Assembly (NCBI GenBank): GCA_036002485.1
Contig: DASYTI010000028.1
Location: forward strand, 1 to 46,850
From: Candidatus Methylomirabilota bacterium
GTDB lineage: Bacteria; Methylomirabilota; Methylomirabilia; Rokubacteriales; CSP1-6
Direction: 5' to 3'
DNA: 46,850 nt
The notes under the pieces are model-generated. The model was not told the origin of the DNA. It was given only the letters and a program-made list of their open reading frames with translations, and searched no databases. A program made the position numbers and the translations under genes. Below, in pieces: positions 7,265 through 41,190 of this stretch. The stretch's first letter is position 1. Each line of letters starts with the position of its first letter.

Positions 7265-7849
7265 TCATGGCTCACGGAGCAGGTGCCGGAAGGTCAGGCT
7301 TATCCGCTCCCCTTGCCGGCCCGCCTGACGCGGGATGCCGTGGACGTAGTGGCGCTGGCAGGTCCCTCCCATCACGAGGAGGGCCCCGTGTCCAAGCGAG
7401 AGATCGTGCCGCTCTCGATCCTGTTTCCGGCGCGGCTTGACGACCAGTCGCCGCGCCGTGCCGAGTGACACGATGGCCACCAGCGGGTCCGGGCCCAGCT
7501 CCGGCTCGTCATCGGAGTGCAGCCCCATGCTGTCCTCGCCGCTCCGGTAGCGGTTGACGAGGACGTGATTGAAGGTCATGCCGGCGCGCGCGTTGACATT
7601 GGCGAGCAGCCCGCGCGCCGTCGGCGTGAACGGCCGTGGCTCGAGCGTTTGCCCCGAGTAGCGGTAGGCGAGATCGCCAGCCCAGGCAATCAGGCGCGGC
7701 TGCAAGATGCGGCGCCCGAACAGCACGATCTCCCGCTGCTCCCAGTCGAGCTCGCGACGAAGGCTCGCCAGCGCATCGTCGGCTTCCTCCGTGGGTAGCC
7801 ACTCGGCGTCGTAGTCGAGCCAGGCGCCGGAGGTGAGGGGAATACGCAT
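7265..7849 (-). CDS. alkB: AlkB-type 2-oxoglutarate/Fe(II) dioxygenase
   Basis: 194 residues from ATG at 7849. A GTG at 7885, one base after the TAA of the upstream gene, would add 12 residues; the ATG fits homologues better but neither start has a clear ribosome site. Iron ligands are His111 and Asp113 (GLHSDDE) and His170 (RHYVHGIPR); the 2-oxoglutarate arginines are in GERISLTFR. NVNARAGMTFNHVLVNRYRS matches the nucleotide-recognition region of AlkB/ALKBH2 proteins. Family members reverse N-alkyl damage in DNA or RNA by oxidative demethylation. It follows an unrelated oxidoreductase on the same strand and may be co-transcribed with it. Confidence 0.92.
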   Translation of the reverse strand: MRIPLTSGAWLDYDAEWLPTEEADDALASLRRELDWEQREIVLFGRRILQPRLIAWAGDLAYRYSGQTLEPRPFTPTARGLLANVNARAGMTFNHVLVNRYRSGEDSMGLHSDDEPELGPDPLVAIVSLGTARRLVVKPRRKQDRERHDLSLGHGALLVMGGTCQRHYVHGIPRQAGRQGERISLTFRHLLREP

Positions 7850-7885
7850 CGCGAAAGGTCGCGCGAGGATCTGGGGGGCGCGCAC

Positions 7886-8872
7886 TTACTCTGACGCGGG
7901 ACCGGCCAGCTCGTACGCCTGGTCGATGAGCACGGCGACGCGCGCGCAGTCCTCCACGCCGATCGGGGGCGGGGCGCCGCGACGCCAGTGGTCAAGGGCG
8001 TCGCGAAGCGCGGTGAGAGCGATAGGCTCGGGAAGGGGGACGGCCGCCGTCTCCTCGCTGGAGGCGGTGACCAGGCGGAGCATGTCGTCCTTCACGGCGA
8101 GAATGGCGTCACGCCCGGCGATCTTCCACTCTCCGTCCGTTCCGTTTCGCGGAAAGCCGTTGCCGATCTCGATGGTGCCGAGGATCCCGCCCGTCGAGCG
8201 CACGAGCACCGAGGCGTAGTCTTCCACGCGCTCGCCGAGGGCACGCCGGCTGAGCTGCGCCCCGGTGACCTGGGCATCCTCGCCCGTGAGGTAGAGAAAG
8301 AGGTCGAGAGCATGCGGACCCAGGTTGCGCAGACATCCGCCGCCCGCCACCGCGGGATCAAGCATCCACGGCGCGCCCCACGCGGGGTAGCGCCCGGACG
8401 TGGGGCGGTTCAGACGGAAATAGATATGCGACAGGGGACCGAAACGCCCCTCGGCGAGGAGCTGCCGGGCGCGGGTGGTGAAGGGGAGATAGCGCTGGGC
8501 CAGCGGCACCGCGACGAAGGCCCGCTTCGCCGCCGCCTTGTCGGCGATGCGCCGCACTTCGGCGGCGTTGATCCCCATGGGCTTTTCCATGAGAAAGGGA
8601 TAGCCGTGGTCGAGCAGGTAGTGGGCGGTCTCGGCCATCACGCTGTGGCGACCAAGGGCAATCACGAAGTCGGGGCGCGTCTCGGCCAGCATGTGGGGGT
8701 AGTCGGTGAAGACAGGAGGATGGCCGAGGGCCGCGGCACGTTCGGCCGCCACCGCCGCGCTGGGGTCCTGCACGCCCACGAGCTGAACATCGGGCAGGGT
8801 CACGAGGTGACGCAGATAGGCCGAGTCGTAGAGGGAATGCCAGTGGCTGACCTCGATGGCCGCGACGCGCAT
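7886..8872 (-). CDS. Gfo/Idh/MocA family oxidoreductase
   Basis: 328 residues from ATG at 8872 (MRVAAIEVSHWHS). It has an N-terminal NAD(P)-binding Rossmann domain, the signature MEKPMG about residue 100, and the C-terminal alpha/beta domain starting near LSHIYFRLN. Family enzymes oxidise or reduce sugars and cyclitols; the specific substrate is not readable. A second possible start, ATG at 9007, overlaps the stop of the LLM gene as ATGA. It would add 45 residues made entirely of two copies of a 66-bp tandem repeat, so the conserved N-terminus favours 8872. Both starts should be considered when measuring the protein. Confidence 0.9.
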   Translation of the reverse strand: MRVAAIEVSHWHSLYDSAYLRHLVTLPDVQLVGVQDPSAAVAAERAAALGHPPVFTDYPHMLAETRPDFVIALGRHSVMAETAHYLLDHGYPFLMEKPMGINAAEVRRIADKAAAKRAFVAVPLAQRYLPFTTRARQLLAEGRFGPLSHIYFRLNRPTSGRYPAWGAPWMLDPAVAGGGCLRNLGPHALDLFLYLTGEDAQVTGAQLSRRALGERVEDYASVLVRSTGGILGTIEIGNGFPRNGTDGEWKIAGRDAILAVKDDMLRLVTASSEETAAVPLPEPIALTALRDALDHWRRGAPPPIGVEDCARVAVLIDQAYELAGPASE

Positions 8873-34328: not shown

Positions 34329-36656
34329 ATGGCCTATCGCGTGATCGGCAGGTCCCCGCCTCGAGCGGACGCCTGGGAGAAGGTGCGGGGCCGCCCCATC
34401 TATGCCGGCGATCTCGCGATGGCCGGCATGCTCCACGGCAAGATCGTCCGCAGCCCGTATCCCTCGGCGCGCATCGTCAAGATCGACACCAGCGAAGCCC
34501 GGGCCCTGCCGGGCGTCGTCGCCGTGCTCACTCACGCCGAGGTGCCGCAGAACGCGCTTCGCATGGAATTGCCCGGGCGCATGGCCGAGGCGACGGCGGG
34601 AGCTGTGCTGGCGACCCAGCCGGTGCTGGCCGAGGATCGCGTGCGCTTCCAGGGCGAGCCCGTCGCGGCCATCGCGGCGGAGACTCCGGAGATCGCCGCC
34701 GAGGCCGCCGAGCGGGTTCGGGTCGAGTACGAGCCGCTCCCGGGCGTCTATGATCCGGCGGAAGCGCTGAAGCCCGGCGCCCCCCACGTCCACGAGGGCG
34801 GCAATCTCCTGCGGGCCTGGCATATCCGCAAGGGCGATGCCACGGAGGCCCTCGCGCGCGCGGACGTCATCGTGGAGAAGACCTACCGAACCCCGTTCGT
34901 GGATCACGTGTACCTCGAGACGGAGACGGGGATCGGCTGGATCGACGCCGAGGGCACCCTGGTCCTCCGCGTGAGCACCCAGGTGCTGGAGCATTTCCGC
35001 GACGTGGCCGAAGTCCTGCGGCTGCCCCACGGGAAGGTGCGGCTCGAGGGCGCCTATCTGGGCGGCGGCTTCGGCGGCAAGGAGGACGTGACGGTCGAGT
35101 GCCTGCTCGGCCTCCTCGTGTGGAAGACGCGGCGGCCCGTGCAGCTCGTCTTCTCGAGGGAAGAGAGCTTCATCGGCCACGGCAAGCGTCATCCGTATCT
35201 CCTGCGCTACAAGTCCGGGGCCACGAGGACGGGCGAGCTGGTGGCCATGGAGGTCGAGCTCGTCTCGGACTCGGGCGCCTACGCCGCGCTCTCGCCCTGG
35301 GTGCTCCTGTACAGCCTGGTGACGGCGACGGGGCCGTACCGGGTGCCTCACGTCAAGGTGGACGCCTTCACCGTCTACACCAACAATCCGGTGGCCAGCG
35401 CCTACCGCACCTTCGGGTCCATCCAGACCTGCATCGGCTATGAGGGACAGATGGACGCCCTGGCCGCCGCGCTCTCCATGGATCCGCTCGAGCTCCGCGA
35501 GAAGAACTTCCTGAGGAAGGGCGACAGGATCGCCACGGGGCAGGTGCTCGAGAGCGAGCCCATGCTGGGCGAAACCATGCGGCGCGCCTGGCAGGCCCTG
35601 GGCCCCCCGCGCGAGGGCGACGGGCCCGTTCGCGTGGCCCGAGGCCTCGCCGCCTCGTTCACGCCGTATGGGCGCATGTGCTGGACGCGCGACTCCGCCT
35701 CCGCCTGGGTGGGCATGGAGCTCGACGGCTCCGCCGTGGTCCGCTGCGCCGCCCCCGATGTGGGCGGGGGACAGACCTCCTCCCTCTGCTCGATCACCGC
35801 GGAAGTCCTGGGCCTGCCCGTAGAGCATGTCGCGGCCGTCGGGCGGGACAGCCACTTCACCCCGCGGGCCGGCACGACGACGGCCACGCGCCAGCTCTTC
35901 ATGTCCGGAAACGCGGTGCTCAAGGCCGCGCACGAGGTACGCCGGCATCTTGTGGATCAGGCCGCGGAGATGCTGGAAGCCGCGCGGGAAGACATCGAGC
36001 TCACGGAGGGACGGGCTCTCGTCCGGGGCGCGCCGGATCGCGCCATCGACTTCTCCGCGCTGGTCAAGGCCGCCACGGCGGCGGGGCGCCCCGTCCAGGC
36101 CCTCGACAAGTACGATGCGCCGTCGGCGCCGACGATTGATCCCATTACCGGGCAGGGCAAGCCCTTCAACGACTACACCTTCGGCACTCAGGCCGTCGAG
36201 GTCGAGGTGGACGAGGAGACGGGCCAGACTCGCGTGACGAAGCTGGCCGCCTGCTATGACGTGGGTCAGGCCATCAATCGCCAGAGCGCCGAGGGCCAGA
36301 TCGAAGGCGGCGCCGTGCAGGGCCTGGGCCACGCCCTCCTCGAAGAAGTCGTGCTCGAGGACGGCGTGTCCAAGAACCCTCATCTTCTCGACTACAAGAT
36401 TCCCACCACCCTCGACGCGCCCGAGATCATCACGATCCTGCTCGAGTCGGGACAGGGCCTCGGGCCCTTCGGCGCCAAGGGCATCGGGGAGCCCGCCATG
36501 ACCCCGACGCCGGCCGCGGTGATGAACGCCGTCACGCGCGCCGCCCGCGCCCCCCTGACCCGCTTCCCCCTCACCGCCGAACGCGTCCTCGCGGCTCTCA
36601 AGAGCCAATCAGCTTCGAAAAATCCCTCTCCCCCATCGGGGGAGAGGGCAGGGTGA
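34329..36656 (+). CDS. Molybdopterin-binding large subunit of a second xanthine-dehydrogenase-family enzyme
   Basis: 775 residues from ATG at 34329. Family text: PRADAWEKVRGRPIYAGDLA, LGGGFGGKEDVTVECLLGLL, SAYRTFGSIQTC (AYRGFG-like), PDVGGGQTSSLCSITAEVLG, and the catalytic Glu in AKGIGEPAMTPTP. It is only distantly like the other two Mo subunits here. The last 13 codons (KNPSPPSGERAG, then stop) are read from repeat copy 4, so the repeat supplies the present C-terminus and stop codon. No usual ribosome site is visible because the inverted repeats come right up to the start. The Fe-S and FAD subunits follow. Confidence 0.92.
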   Translation: MAYRVIGRSPPRADAWEKVRGRPIYAGDLAMAGMLHGKIVRSPYPSARIVKIDTSEARALPGVVAVLTHAEVPQNALRMELPGRMAEATAGAVLATQPVLAEDRVRFQGEPVAAIAAETPEIAAEAAERVRVEYEPLPGVYDPAEALKPGAPHVHEGGNLLRAWHIRKGDATEALARADVIVEKTYRTPFVDHVYLETETGIGWIDAEGTLVLRVSTQVLEHFRDVAEVLRLPHGKVRLEGAYLGGGFGGKEDVTVECLLGLLVWKTRRPVQLVFSREESFIGHGKRHPYLLRYKSGATRTGELVAMEVELVSDSGAYAALSPWVLLYSLVTATGPYRVPHVKVDAFTVYTNNPVASAYRTFGSIQTCIGYEGQMDALAAALSMDPLELREKNFLRKGDRIATGQVLESEPMLGETMRRAWQALGPPREGDGPVRVARGLAASFTPYGRMCWTRDSASAWVGMELDGSAVVRCAAPDVGGGQTSSLCSITAEVLGLPVEHVAAVGRDSHFTPRAGTTTATRQLFMSGNAVLKAAHEVRRHLVDQAAEMLEAAREDIELTEGRALVRGAPDRAIDFSALVKAATAAGRPVQALDKYDAPSAPTIDPITGQGKPFNDYTFGTQAVEVEVDEETGQTRVTKLAACYDVGQAINRQSAEGQIEGGAVQGLGHALLEEVVLEDGVSKNPHLLDYKIPTTLDAPEIITILLESGQGLGPFGAKGIGEPAMTPTPAAVMNAVTRAARAPLTRFPLTAERVLAALKSQSASKNPSPPSGERAG

Positions 36657-36660
36657 GGGG
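36624..36660. repeat. CCCTCTCCCC-type palindromic repeat, copy 4, overlapping a gene end
   Basis: CCCTCTCCCCCATCGGGGGAGAGGG at 36624-36648 is followed by CAGGGTGAGGGG. It covers the last codons and the TGA of the second Mo large subunit. A gene ending inside the repeat indicates insertion near the old stop, or recruitment of repeat bases as coding sequence. Confidence 0.9.
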
Positions 36661-36680
36661 GCACAGGCCTACACCATCCC

Positions 36681-37139
36681 ATGCGCCTCGACTTCACCCT
36701 CAACAACCATCCCTGCCGCGCGGAGGCTCCCGCCCACTGGACGGTCCTCGATCTTCTCCGCGATGGCCTCGCCCTCACGGCGACCAAGTATGGCTGTGGC
36801 GAGGGCGTGTGTGGCACCTGCACCGTGCTCCTCGACGGCGAGCCCGTCCGCGCATGCCTCGTTCTCGCCTCCCGGCTCCGCGGGCGGACCCTCCTCACCG
36901 CCGAAGGTCTGGAAGACAATGGCCAGCCTGACCGGCTTCAGAGCGCCTTTGCCCGCGCGGGCGCGGCCCAGTGCGGCTTCTGCACGCCGGGCATGCTGCT
37001 CTCCGCCCGCGCGCTGCTCGCCGCGAATCCCTCGCCCACCGAGCACGACGTGCGCGAGGCCCTCGCCGGCAATCTCTGCCGCTGTACCGGCTACACGAAG
37101 ATCATCGAAGCGGTGCTGGCCGCGGCGGGCGCCCGCTGA
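36681..37139 (+). CDS. [2Fe-2S] small subunit of the second Mo hydroxylase
   Basis: 152 residues from ATG at 36681. Clusters: [20 protein letters not shown] (first) and [12 protein letters not shown] with LCRCTGYT (second). It follows the large subunit by 24 nt and shares one base with the start of the FAD subunit (TGATG). The gene order large-small-medium differs from large-medium-small at 24602-28292, so the two sets are unlikely to be a recent local duplication. Confidence 0.94.
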
Positions 37140-37996
37140 TGCGCCTCCGCCCATTCGCGCTGGTCGAGCCCGAGACGATTCCCGAGGCCGTCGAGATCCT
37201 GGCCGGGCTGGACGGAGAGGCCCGGGTCATCGCCGGCGGCACCGCGCTCGTCCCCACCATGCGCCTCGGTCTCGTGGCGCCGGACCGTCTCGTCTCGCTG
37301 CATCGCATTGCCGGGCTGTCGGACATCCGCGTGGACAAGGGCATGCTCGAGATCGGGGCCATGGCGAGCCTGTCCGCCCTCGTCCGCCACGGCGCCGTCC
37401 GCGAGGGCTGGCCGCTTCTCGCTCGAGCCGCCGCCCGCGTGGCCACTCCCGCCATCCGGAGCAGCGCCACGCTCGGCGGCAATCTCTGTTATGCCGAGGC
37501 CGCGTCTGACCCCGCGCCGGCCCTTCTCTGCCTCGAGGCCCAGGTGCGCGTGGCGGACTCCGTGGGCGAGCGGGTGGTGCCGATCGGCGAGTTCTTCACG
37601 GGATTCTACGAGACGGCGGTCGCCCAGGGGGAGATCCTCACGGCGGTACGCGTGCCGCCCATGCCGCCCGGGGCCCGGGCCGCCTACGTCAAGTTCTGCC
37701 CGCGCTCCGCCGAGGACAAGCCGCTCATCGGCGTGGCCGCCCTCGTGAGGCTCGACGACGCGAAGCGGGTGAGGGAGGTCCGGATCGCTCTGGCCGGGGC
37801 CGCTCCCACTCCGATTCGCGCGCGCCGCGCCGAGGCCGCCCTGTCAGGCGAGGCGTTGACGGAGGCGGCCATTCATGCCGCCGCGGACGCTGCCGCCGCC
37901 GAGGCCGACCCGCTCTCCGACCTCATGGGCTCGGCCGACTATCGTCGGGAGATGATCCGCGTGTGGATCCGCCGCCTGCTCCTCTCCCTCCGCTAG
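37139..37996 (+). CDS. FAD-binding medium subunit of the second Mo hydroxylase
   Basis: 285 residues from ATG at 37139, overlapping the previous stop by one base. FAD motifs: ARVIAGGTALVPTMRLGL and TPAIRSSATLGGNLCYAEAA with SDPAPALLCL. The ending DLMGSADYRREMIRVWIRRL is the usual C-terminus of CoxM/4-hydroxybenzoyl-CoA reductase beta-type subunits. It completes the second three-subunit enzyme. The Tyr/Cys text CYAEAASDPAPAL resembles the 4-HBCR/xanthine dehydrogenase FAD loops more than the first set does. The substrate is unknown. Confidence 0.93.
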   Translation: MRLRPFALVEPETIPEAVEILAGLDGEARVIAGGTALVPTMRLGLVAPDRLVSLHRIAGLSDIRVDKGMLEIGAMASLSALVRHGAVREGWPLLARAAARVATPAIRSSATLGGNLCYAEAASDPAPALLCLEAQVRVADSVGERVVPIGEFFTGFYETAVAQGEILTAVRVPPMPPGARAAYVKFCPRSAEDKPLIGVAALVRLDDAKRVREVRIALAGAAPTPIRARRAEAALSGEALTEAAIHAAADAAAAEADPLSDLMGSADYRREMIRVWIRRLLLSLR

Positions 37997-38105
37997 TCGG
38001 TTCCGCGTTGTCGACTGCCGGCCCCGCTTGACGGGTGGCGCGCTTCTGGGAACAATAGCCGCCACGAAAAGGGGTGACGGATGCCACGCTCGTCCACCTG
38101 TCTCG

Positions 38106-40190
38106 ATGGCCGACGATCAGCCCCGCTGTGAGCTCGCCATGACCGCGGGCGCTCGTCCCCTCGCGCGCGGGGCCCACCTGGTGGGCAGCGTCCCCCTCGC
38201 GAGCGCGGAGGCCGTCTTTCAGACGGTGGCCGCGGAGATCGGTGACCGCCTGCGCCGCATCCCCGACGGCGAGACCGGCCCGCGCTCGGACTGGATCGTC
38301 TGGCAGCTCCCCGTCTTCACCTCCCAGCCGCAGCTCGAGGTGGTCCCTCCAGGCCCGGACAGCTGGCGGCCGCTGCCGCGAGTCCGTCTCGGCGAGGGCG
38401 TCCGGCCCGACAGTGTGGTTTTCGAGGCCCTGGGTTACGCGGAAGCAGCGATCGCCTCGTATCGCCTCTTCGCACGGCTGAAGCGTGACGGGCTCGTGCC
38501 GGTGGCCTGCCGCTTCCAGGTCTGCCTGCCCACTCCGCTGGCTCCCATCAGCGCCTTCGTGGTGCCCGAGCATCAGGGTGTCCTTGAGCGCAGTTACGAG
38601 GAGCGGCTGCTCGCCGAGCTGCAGGTGATCCTCCGGGAGGTACCCCACGACCAGGTCTCCGTACAGTGGGACACCAACTTCGAGTTCGGCATGCTCGAGG
38701 GCGTCTTTCCCGTCTGGTTCGAGGACGTCAAGGGCGGCATTCTCGAGCGCCTGCTGCGGCTCTCCCGGCAGGTGCCGTCGGACGTCGAGCTGGGATATCA
38801 CTTCTGCTACGGCGACGTCCAGCACCGGCACTTCAAGGAGCCCGCCGACGCCGGCAAGCTGGTGGAGGTCGCCAATGCGCTGGCCGCGAGCCTCGGGCGG
38901 CCGCTGAACTGGATCCACATGCCGGTGCCCCGTGACCGGACCGACGAGGCGTACTACGCGCCGCTGAAGGAGCTTCGTCTGCAGCCCGAGACCGAGCTGC
39001 ACCTCGGCCTGGTCCACCACACGGACGGGGCCGAGGGAACGGCCCGCCGCATGGAGGTGGCCGCGCGCTTCGCCTCCGGCTTCGGCATCGCCACCGAGTG
39101 CGGCTGGGGGCGGCGCGCGCCGGCAAGCATTCCCGATCTGCTCCGCATCCATCGAGAGCTGAGCGCGCCCGTGCAGCCGTCGGGCCGGCCGCGCGGGCGC
39201 TTCGCATGGCCGGCCGGGTTCGCGCGCATCCCCGACGAGGACTGGACGCGGCAGCCGGTGGACGTCTTTGGCCTTCGCTACGACACCGTCGAGAACCACG
39301 GCTGGTACCGGAACCTCGACCCGACCGTGGAGGACCTCGCCCGGCATCTGGATGAAGGCCAGCTCCTCATCGACTACTCCGGCGGCACCGGCATTCTCCT
39401 CGACCGCCTGCATCTGCGGATCTTCGATCGCCGGGTGGGGATGCTCATCGTCGACAGCTCGCCCAAGTTCCTGCGGGTGGCCCTGGACAAGTTCAGCGGC
39501 GACGAGCGGGTGGGCTTGCGGCTCCTGCGCTGGCGCAAGGAAGAGAAGCGGCTGGACTTCCTCGACGAGGCGATCGGCCCCGCGCTCACGGCCCGCGGGG
39601 CGGAGGCGATTGCCTCCACCAACGCGATCCATCTCTACACGGACCTACCGGGGACGGTCGCCTCGTGGGCCCGAGTGCTGCGGCCCGGAGGCCGCGTCTT
39701 CGTCCAGTCGGGGAATATTCGGAATCCCCAGGCCCGCCCGAGCGAGTGGATCCTGGACGAGACGGTCTGGGCGATCCACGAGGTCGCCACGGGCCTCGTC
39801 CGCAACGATCCGCGCTACGCCGCCTATCGATCGCTCCTCGACGACGAGGCCCGGATGCAGGCGCACGTGTCGTACCGGGACCGCGTCTTTCTCCCCGTGC
39901 GCCCGCTCGACTACTACGTGGGCTGCCTCGAAGGGGCCGGGTTGGCGGTGGAGGCCGTGACCGCTCGCACCATCGAGACCAGCGTCGAGGACTGGTTCGA
40001 GTTCTTGAGCGCCTACCACGAGGCGGTGTTGGGCTGGGTGGGAGGCTCCGCGAAGGTGGACGGCGCCCCGCCGACCAAGGAGGCCGAGGGCGACCGGCTG
40101 GCCCTGATCCGGCACGCCATGGACACGCTCCTCGGCGGCCGGCCGTCATTCCGGTGCTGCTGGACCTACATCACCTGCGTGAGGCCGTGA
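38106..40190 (+). CDS. Fusion of a MetE-like zinc domain and a class I SAM-dependent methyltransferase
   Basis: 694 residues from ATG at 38106; ATG at 38139 is an alternative and neither has a strong ribosome site. Residues 20-370 resemble the UROD/MetE-like barrel: HLVGSVPLASAEAVFQTVA, RIPDGETGPRSDW, VSVQWDTNFEF, then GYHFCYGD (His232, Cys234) and ATECGWGRR (Cys332). These recall the zinc ligands HxC and C of cobalamin-independent methionine synthase. Residues 400-694 form a Rossmann methyltransferase: QLLIDYSGGTGILLDRL (motif I), MLIVDSSPKFL (motif II) and VLRPGGRVFVQSGN (post-I region). The full frame is uninterrupted. It may join thiol activation to methyl transfer, but the substrate and direction are unknown. 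It is not clearly part of the Mo hydroxylase operon (109-nt gap). Confidence 0.75.
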   Translation: MADDQPRCELAMTAGARPLARGAHLVGSVPLASAEAVFQTVAAEIGDRLRRIPDGETGPRSDWIVWQLPVFTSQPQLEVVPPGPDSWRPLPRVRLGEGVRPDSVVFEALGYAEAAIASYRLFARLKRDGLVPVACRFQVCLPTPLAPISAFVVPEHQGVLERSYEERLLAELQVILREVPHDQVSVQWDTNFEFGMLEGVFPVWFEDVKGGILERLLRLSRQVPSDVELGYHFCYGDVQHRHFKEPADAGKLVEVANALAASLGRPLNWIHMPVPRDRTDEAYYAPLKELRLQPETELHLGLVHHTDGAEGTARRMEVAARFASGFGIATECGWGRRAPASIPDLLRIHRELSAPVQPSGRPRGRFAWPAGFARIPDEDWTRQPVDVFGLRYDTVENHGWYRNLDPTVEDLARHLDEGQLLIDYSGGTGILLDRLHLRIFDRRVGMLIVDSSPKFLRVALDKFSGDERVGLRLLRWRKEEKRLDFLDEAIGPALTARGAEAIASTNAIHLYTDLPGTVASWARVLRPGGRVFVQSGNIRNPQARPSEWILDETVWAIHEVATGLVRNDPRYAAYRSLLDDEARMQAHVSYRDRVFLPVRPLDYYVGCLEGAGLAVEAVTARTIETSVEDWFEFLSAYHEAVLGWVGGSAKVDGAPPTKEAEGDRLALIRHAMDTLLGGRPSFRCCWTYITCVRP

Positions 40191-40539: not shown

Positions 40540-41190
40540 GTGAGGAATGAATTCTTCCGGGTGGCGATAGTGCTGGCGGTAACGATGACGCTGAGCAGTA
40601 TTGTTCCGGTGGTCGATTCGTGGGCCTGGAGCAGTGGCAGCGGAAGCAGCGGTGGGAGCGCAGGGAGCGGCAGCGGCGGATCAGGAGGCGGAAGTGGTGG
40701 GACCGGAGGCGCCGGCGGTGGTGGATCAGGGAGCGGCGCTGGGGGCAGCAGTGCCAGCGGCGGAAGCGGTGCTGGAGCAGGCGGCAGCGGGGCAAGCGGA
40801 GGCGGAAGCGGTGCCGCAGCAGGAGGCGGCGCGGGCGGCGGCAGCGGCGCGGGAAGTGCAAACGGCGGCGATAGCGGGGCGGGCGGGGGCAGCTCCGTCG
40901 CGGTAGGCGCAGGGAGCCCTCCGGGAGATGCATGGGTTCGAGAGAACGCGCAGCGCGGCAATTTCTTGGCTTCGGTGGGCGCGTTCTCCTTCAGCCAACC
41001 CGCGCCGGCTTTTCGAATGACGCCGGCCCAGGAGCGGACATGGGACACGTTTCGCGCGTGCGCTCCGAATGGGGCGTTGATCGATCAGCTTCGCGTCGAC
41101 GGCTCGTTTTCCTTTCAAGCGACGCTGCAATCCGACGTGCGTGTGATCAAGTCCTGCATGACTCGGGTCGGATACCGGTTCGACTACTGA
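40540..41190 (+). CDS. Secreted Gly/Ser-rich low-complexity protein
   Basis: 216 residues from GTG at 40540, preceded by GGGAGGAGATCAC. A signal peptide (FFRVAIVLAVTMTLSSIVPV, cut near DSWAW) is followed by about 95 residues made almost only of Gly, Ser and Ala. A small C-terminal domain follows: RTWDTFRACAPNG and VIKSCMTRVGYRFDY. Its two cysteines probably form a disulfide; the CM..GYRFDY ending is seen in small envelope lipoproteins. The Gly/Ser tract may be a flexible surface spacer and is prone to length change by slippage. The function is unknown. Confidence 0.7.
   Translation: MRNEFFRVAIVLAVTMTLSSIVPVVDSWAWSSGSGSSGGSAGSGSGGSGGGSGGTGGAGGGGSGSGAGGSSASGGSGAGAGGSGASGGGSGAAAGGGAGGGSGAGSANGGDSGAGGGSSVAVGAGSPPGDAWVRENAQRGNFLASVGAFSFSQPAPAFRMTPAQERTWDTFRACAPNGALIDQLRVDGSFSFQATLQSDVRVIKSCMTRVGYRFDY

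Follow-up and report, generated by a model that had tools for sequence, protein, structure and literature searches.

A MetE-related barrel fused to a predicted class I SAM methyltransferase in Rokubacteriales and a few other bacteria

Does a single polypeptide joining a barrel of the cobalamin-independent methionine synthase (MetE) type to a SAM methyltransferase represent a genuine protein, and which reaction could its two halves carry out? The question was raised by a gene in the window, i.e., the whole 46,850-nucleotide stretch of DNA analysed here, derived from a Candidatus Methylomirabilota genome of the order Rokubacteriales. An earlier note, made from the sequence alone, had described one uninterrupted frame combining a barrel that carries HxC and C motifs, like those of the MetE zinc site, with a class I methyltransferase, and had proposed that such a chain could make or break a methyl-sulfur bond or pass a methyl group between carriers. 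Our analysis confirmed the observation and partly supported its interpretation. The note also knew of no characterised enzyme with this layout and, in agreement, our searches of open-access papers returned none on the fusion layout or on the barrel family.

The fusion gene, its distribution and its origin

The fusion gene is contained in an open frame on the plus strand (38028-40190), and translation from the ATG at 38106 gives a protein of 694 residues with His232, Cys234 and Cys332 numbered as previously described (Table 1). Because the relatives align only from approximately residue 20, translation may in fact begin downstream, at the ATG at 38139 or a later one. The sequences GGAG, GAGG and AGGA were looked for in 38001-38160 and none was found. 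A separate plus-strand frame of 216 amino acids with a long Gly/Ser-rich repeat tract is located at 40540-41190 of the window.

Table 1. Features of the fusion gene in the window (conservation counts refer to the 45-row alignment of the barrel or to the 16 fusions)
Feature	Coordinates	Strand	Remarks
Fusion gene	38106..40190	+	694 aa and stop; ATG 38139 = alternative start
N-terminal MetE-fold barrel, residues 19-357	38160..39176	+	VIA Z 22.7 to 3rpd, 20.9 to 1xdj; hhalign to PF01717 set
Ser28, aligned with MetE Ser411 (homocysteine carboxylate)	38187..38189	+	42/45, 3 gaps
Glu56, aligned with MetE Glu462 (homocysteine amino group)	38271..38273	+	45/45
Asp189, matched to MetE Asp577 in one alignment of three	38670..38672	+	45/45
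His232-Phe-Cys234, predicted zinc ligands, end of beta5	38799..38807	+	45/45 each
His271-Met-Pro273 on beta6; Pro273 at the place of MetE Glu642	38916..38924	+	Pro 45/45, His 44/45
Cys332, predicted zinc ligand after beta8	39099..39101	+	45/45
Linker, residues 358-387	39177..39266	+	weak prediction near the end; G030 has an in-frame partial deletion
C-terminal predicted class I SAM methyltransferase domain, residues 388-694	39267..40187	+	VIA Z 18-19
SAM motif I DYSGGTG, residues 423-429	39372..39392	+	invariant in 16/16 fusions
Asp450, acidic residue	39453..39455	+	invariant in 16/16 fusions

The uninterrupted frame was borne out by full-length relatives, and the same fusion, which the earlier note had suggested looking for elsewhere, was present in 16 distinct genomes, among them 11 of 95 in the phylum of the window as well as Chloroflexota genomes and an Acidimicrobiia MAG. 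Among 99 near relatives, the window's own genome counted, 15 contained a match and 11 of these the whole fusion. Ten of the whole fusions appeared as a single match and one (genome G030; L028 / L041) as two matches, which together form a single frame that has lost about 24 residues, in frame, from the linker and the start of the C-terminal domain. The search of the phylum returned the same 15 genomes with a match out of 95, every one in one family, and full-length single-frame relatives in 11 of the 95, at 79-94% identity. In a scan of named genomes, 355 of 371 stretches were confirmed and the best 80 of the 355 were kept; these 80 loci comprised 12 full-length fusions and 68 loci with the barrel half only. 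Eight of the 12 fusions came from Rokubacteria, and the remaining four, at 62-67% identity, from MAGs labelled Chloroflexi (two), Acidimicrobiia and Bacillota. The class of one Chloroflexi MAG yielded three full fusions in 110 genomes, the 'Bacillota' MAG included, and the class of the Acidimicrobiia MAG one in 296 genomes. The MAG titled Bacillota (Centralia_MAG_97, L045) was placed in the class of a Chloroflexi MAG, and its label is probably an error.

A barrel tree was calculated from 69 rows (70 were entered and L060 was dropped by the length and stop filter), including 34 of the 68 standalone loci from the best-80 named set. The 16 fusions were located together on one side of one branch (100/99), which was recovered in 200 of 200 bootstrap trees. 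The barrel and the methyltransferase were joined once in evolution. The dN/dS values of the window versus five Rokubacteria ranged from 0.09 to 0.20 in either half (0.10-0.20 for the barrel), and those versus three far fusions from 0.30 to 0.47, the latter being a crude NG86 figure at high divergence. Purifying selection keeps both halves of the fusion. The window comes from a draft genome (4.45 Mb, 253 contigs), but an assembly chimera, or a chance joining of two genes in one frame, is so improbable as to be ruled out, since the independent genomes carry the same fusion as one clade and the dN/dS values in Rokubacteria are far below 1. One additional locus (L156, genome G199, about 7631-8460) contained the methyltransferase part only (66%, residues 417-658), with a frame change near its end, and looks like a decayed remnant of the fusion.

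The two domains and the predicted metal and thiol site

The barrel modelled alone with AlphaFold2 reached a pLDDT of 93.6 and a pTM of 0.92, compared with a mean pLDDT of 86.2 and a pTM of 0.68 for the whole chain. Structure comparison with VIA-align gave the best match to MesD (3rpd; Z 22.7, rmsd 3.6, 292 aligned), followed by MetE (1xdj; Z 20.9, rmsd 3.5, 283 aligned), a Methanosarcina methyltransferase (4ay8; Z 17.0, rmsd 3.8, 267 aligned) and UROD (1uro; Z 16.9, rmsd 4.2, 269 aligned). The MetE-like nature of the barrel was therefore upheld by Z values above that of UROD, which was rejected as its nearest fold; 4ay8 and 1uro belong to the same barrel superfamily, with a weaker fold match than MetE and MesD and 8% identity. 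Profile-profile comparison (hhalign) of the barrel with 12 PF01717 proteins from these genomes gave a probability of 88.2% and a pairwise E of 2.9e-6. No Pfam match over the barrel, PF01717 (Meth_synt_2) included, was found in 45 members at E up to 10, and no NCBIfam match over the barrel of the window's protein at E up to 1. The 45-row alignment (A2: the window, 12 fusions and 32 of the 68 standalone loci) was also used for a profile search of PDB sequences; MetE was not among the matches: apart from one unrelated protein, these were all methyltransferases, with E values of 0.013 or worse. The barrel represents a family without a Pfam model that is related to MetE. Members are present in Rokubacteria, Chloroflexota, Actinomycetota, Pseudomonadota and others, as well as in 5 of 72,556 plasmid records (25-41% identity), each annotated as 'hypothetical protein'. 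The window's own genome contains a standalone paralogue (L002, contig C106, 16576-17619, minus strand; 46% over residues 10-351), which adjoins a luciferase-like monooxygenase (Pfam) and a gene resembling, by eye, fumarylacetoacetate hydrolase.

Each half of the fusion would work like a known kind of protein. Like MesA-MesD, the N-terminal half is a single MetE-type barrel without a folate barrel, and it shares with them HxC and C as well as the Ser, Glu and Asp of the homocysteine site; 3rpd was the best structure match among the barrels compared. Unlike MesD, to which it is 16% identical, it is fused to a SAM methyltransferase and has no Pfam Meth_synt_2 match. The catalytic barrel fold and three of the four zinc ligands (His, Cys, Cys) are common to the present protein and MetE (1xdj). 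In contrast to MetE, there is one barrel only (from about residue 19) and no N-terminal folate barrel, the fourth zinc ligand, Glu642, is absent, and the barrel is followed, C-terminally, by a SAM methyltransferase as its partner.

In T. maritima MetE, according to PMC539065, His618 ends beta5, Cys620 comes next, Glu642 ends beta6 and Cys704 follows beta8, with Ser411, Glu462 and Asp577 holding homocysteine. The AlphaFold2 models place His232 at the end of beta5, Cys234 after it, Pro273 at the end of beta6 and Cys332 after beta8, i.e., by strand position the three candidate ligands sit on the same strand ends as those of MetE. The claimed likeness to the MetE zinc site stood for His232, Cys234 and Cys332, which align, and did not extend to the fourth ligand, as Glu642 is replaced by Pro273. 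Both MAFFT modes matched S28, E56, H232, C234 and C332 to the same residues in 12/12 PF01717 proteins and aligned P273 with a Glu in 12/12. The D189 residue fell on the Asp of the QID motif in 12/12 by E-INS-i and in another register by L-INS-i and hhalign; Asp189 is the least certain of the homocysteine-site matches because its register depends on the aligner.

None of the 45 aligned members lacked any of the three candidate ligands. We additionally inspected 25 further rows (one fusion and 24 barrels), mostly more distant and down to 27% identity, in which His232 was conserved in 25/25 and Cys234, Cys332, His271 and Pro273 in 24/25 each. Asp189 was changed to Glu in the far group of these rows, and position 273 was either Pro or Thr, a Rhodococcus member having Ser at 271 and Thr at 273. 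Both Cys ligands are lost in one distant barrel, encoded on plasmid pB32-1 of Bosea sp. F3-2 (L164), which keeps the two His and lies in an aromatic-catabolism-like gene set.

As judged from the alignments, the displaceable Glu of MetE is absent throughout the barrel family; with this ligand replaced, the site would not simply be that of MetE. In core methionine synthases the fourth zinc ligand is Glu or Asp, as stated in PMC7857596. The barrel differs from MesA-MesD in having Pro273 at this place and a His two residues earlier, and His271 possibly takes the place of the missing Glu. His242 was set aside as a fourth ligand, being absent in 3/45 rows, all of them fusions (L043, L044 and L045). 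Zinc binding was doubted where the fourth-ligand Glu is Gly (PMC7857596), and a catalytic thiol site without Glu642 is possible because BHMT has leucine there (PMC539065). The presence of HxP throughout the family where MetE has Glu makes it a natural test of what this ligand does in MetE.

The C-terminal domain (METHYLTRANSFERASE, residues 388-694) matched Coq5 (Z 18.9), OxaG and GtmA (both 18.6), TmtA (18.4) and many others, all tied. It resembles these four in fold, motif I and the acidic residue, and differs from them in sequence (13-18% identity), in scoring below Pfam cut-offs and in being fused to a zinc-type barrel. Pfam Methyltransf_12 matched the window's protein at E 0.00013, below the family cut-off, and other members at up to 6.9e-9. 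Together with motif I, Asp450, which we take to be the acidic residue expected at the SAM ribose, and TNAIHLY (505-511) were invariant in 16/16 fusions, and the intact SAM motifs reported earlier were thereby recovered in every fusion. The predicted fold, with motif I and the acidic residue, is that of a class I SAM methyltransferase; it does not fix the substrate. A search with this domain by itself hit 4 of 30 genomes, always within the fusion. No free gene for it was detected beside standalone barrels in the flanks of the loci examined, and all its matches were in fusion loci. Residues 386-397 had a pLDDT below 50 in the whole-chain model, and the relative placing of the two domains was left unfixed (pTM 0.68).

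Genomic surroundings of the fusion

In the window, genes for the three subunits of a molybdenum hydroxylase (34329-37996) precede the fusion gene; the small [2Fe-2S] subunit of this enzyme, at 36681, was assigned by eye. Genes for hydantoinase A and B, for a periplasmic binding protein and for an SDR also lie upstream. The earlier note had suggested a check for conserved neighbours, and no shared direct neighbour emerged: these varied by locus and included CoxM-like, PF01717, methylmalonyl-CoA mutase, thiolase, RNA polymerase alpha and porin genes. Because of these differences, no operon that would name the pathway was found around the fusion and barrel loci. Pfam identified Liv-type ABC importer genes in the vicinity of L023 and L043, and comparable ORFs were seen close to L028 and L044. 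Several barrels have SDR, enoyl-CoA hydratase and TauD genes in their vicinity. All of these are common genes and were set aside as functional clues.

The one association that recurred was with a complete PF01717 gene, present in the fetched flanks of 5/15 fusion loci vs 1/74 standalone loci (Fisher p 0.0004), a test that ignores the origin of fusion and standalone loci from different phyla. Three of the five linked fusion loci represent one syntenic arrangement, and collapsing them gave 3/13 (p 0.01). The fusion of one Chloroflexi MAG (L043, 6884-12248) is flanked by three separate PF01717 matches. The window's own genome contains 13 PF01717 matches in 4.45 Mb (loci L115-L127), seven of them spanning most of the profile; this is an unusual expansion of MetE-like proteins, and such genes are therefore common there. 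The same genome has a Met_synt_B12 (MetH-type) match in an open frame of 1149 amino acids, on which ground the fusion was rejected as the cell's main methionine synthase.

Candidate reactions of the fused protein

The reading that we tentatively prefer is a two-domain methyl- or alkyl-transfer enzyme, in which a homocysteine-type zinc-thiolate barrel and a SAM methyltransferase act on one small molecule. The residues of the barrel make a thiol-activating role for this half probable; the whole coupled scheme, with both sites acting on the molecule in successive steps, is advanced with greater reserve. Homocysteine or a close alpha-amino thiol would be bound by the barrel via Ser28, Glu56 and Asp189, as the aligned residues suggest, and its sulfur would be activated on a metal at the predicted site His232, Cys234 and Cys332, where the displaceable Glu of MetE has apparently been lost and His271 may have replaced it. 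In the version that we consider most likely, the SAM domain would control how far the substrate is methylated, and the substrate would pass a methyl or alkyl group to the zinc-bound thiolate, yielding methionine or a thioether; the protein would be a salvage or catabolic enzyme. The involvement of both sites with one molecule is suggested by the fusion being single and strictly kept.

This reading is favoured by putative zinc-type and homocysteine-type residues that persist down to 27% identity and correspond to the MetE site described in PMC539065 and PMC7857596. It is also in line with the SAM motifs in 16/16 fusions, the single origin, the purifying selection, both folds and the homology to PF01717, as well as with the PF01717 genes near 5/15 fusion loci and the MetH-type domain elsewhere in the genome. 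Against it stand the apparent absence of the fourth zinc ligand of MetE in 45/45 rows, the aligner-dependent match of Asp189, the lack of a shared operon and the unfixed placing of the domains in the model. The fused form would bring SAM chemistry and the activation of a thiol together in a single chain, and its substrate would therefore reveal a sulfur or one-carbon step in uncultured soil bacteria. The fusion is a concrete new enzyme candidate from soil bacteria related to Rokubacteria.

A less likely alternative, which nevertheless deserves weight, is that methylation follows a reaction at a C-S bond. In this case, the barrel would join an amino thiol to an electrophile, or release it, and the C-terminal domain would O-, N- or S-methylate the product, thiol and methyl belonging to separate steps of biosynthesis or detoxification. 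The superfamily of the barrel holds, beside MetE, the epoxyalkane:coenzyme M transferase (PMC10418091), which performs such a joining with epoxides, and an altered chemistry would fit the loss of the MetE Glu; however, the kept homocysteine-type Ser, Glu and Asp suggest that the thiol is that of an amino acid and not coenzyme M. The fold matches of the C-terminal domain are small-molecule methyltransferases, including the S-methyltransferases TmtA and GtmA, but they are tied among many substrates.

It is unlikely that the two sites perform a single composite reaction, in which the zinc-activated thiolate of the barrel meets SAM in the C-terminal domain and the protein is a SAM-dependent thiol methyltransferase. 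Both sites are in one chain and the C-terminal domain was never found apart from the fusion in the 30 genomes, yet an active site of its own, closed, is normal for each fold, the linker is weakly predicted and 24 residues are deleted in G030. Moreover, barrels standing alone far outnumber fusions (68 of the best 80 named loci), so the barrel can work without the C-terminal domain.

Plants have an S-methylmethionine cycle. We also regard as unlikely a single-chain methyl cycle, in which the SAM domain would convert a thioether, or a compound like it, into an onium by methylation, and the zinc barrel would transfer this methyl group to homocysteine to form methionine, with a His-Cys-His-Cys zinc set replacing His-Cys-Glu-Cys. 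If true, it would be a bacterial one-protein counterpart of the plant cycle on the MetE fold.

The idea that the methyltransferase does the only chemistry and that the barrel merely binds the substrate or senses a thiol appears improbable. Such decay has precedent, since the N-terminal barrel of MetE itself lost zinc and homocysteine binding (PMC539065), and the Bosea relative lacks both Cys. In the fusions, however, the ligand and thiol residues were invariant in every aligned member, and the barrel dN/dS in Rokubacteria was 0.10-0.20.
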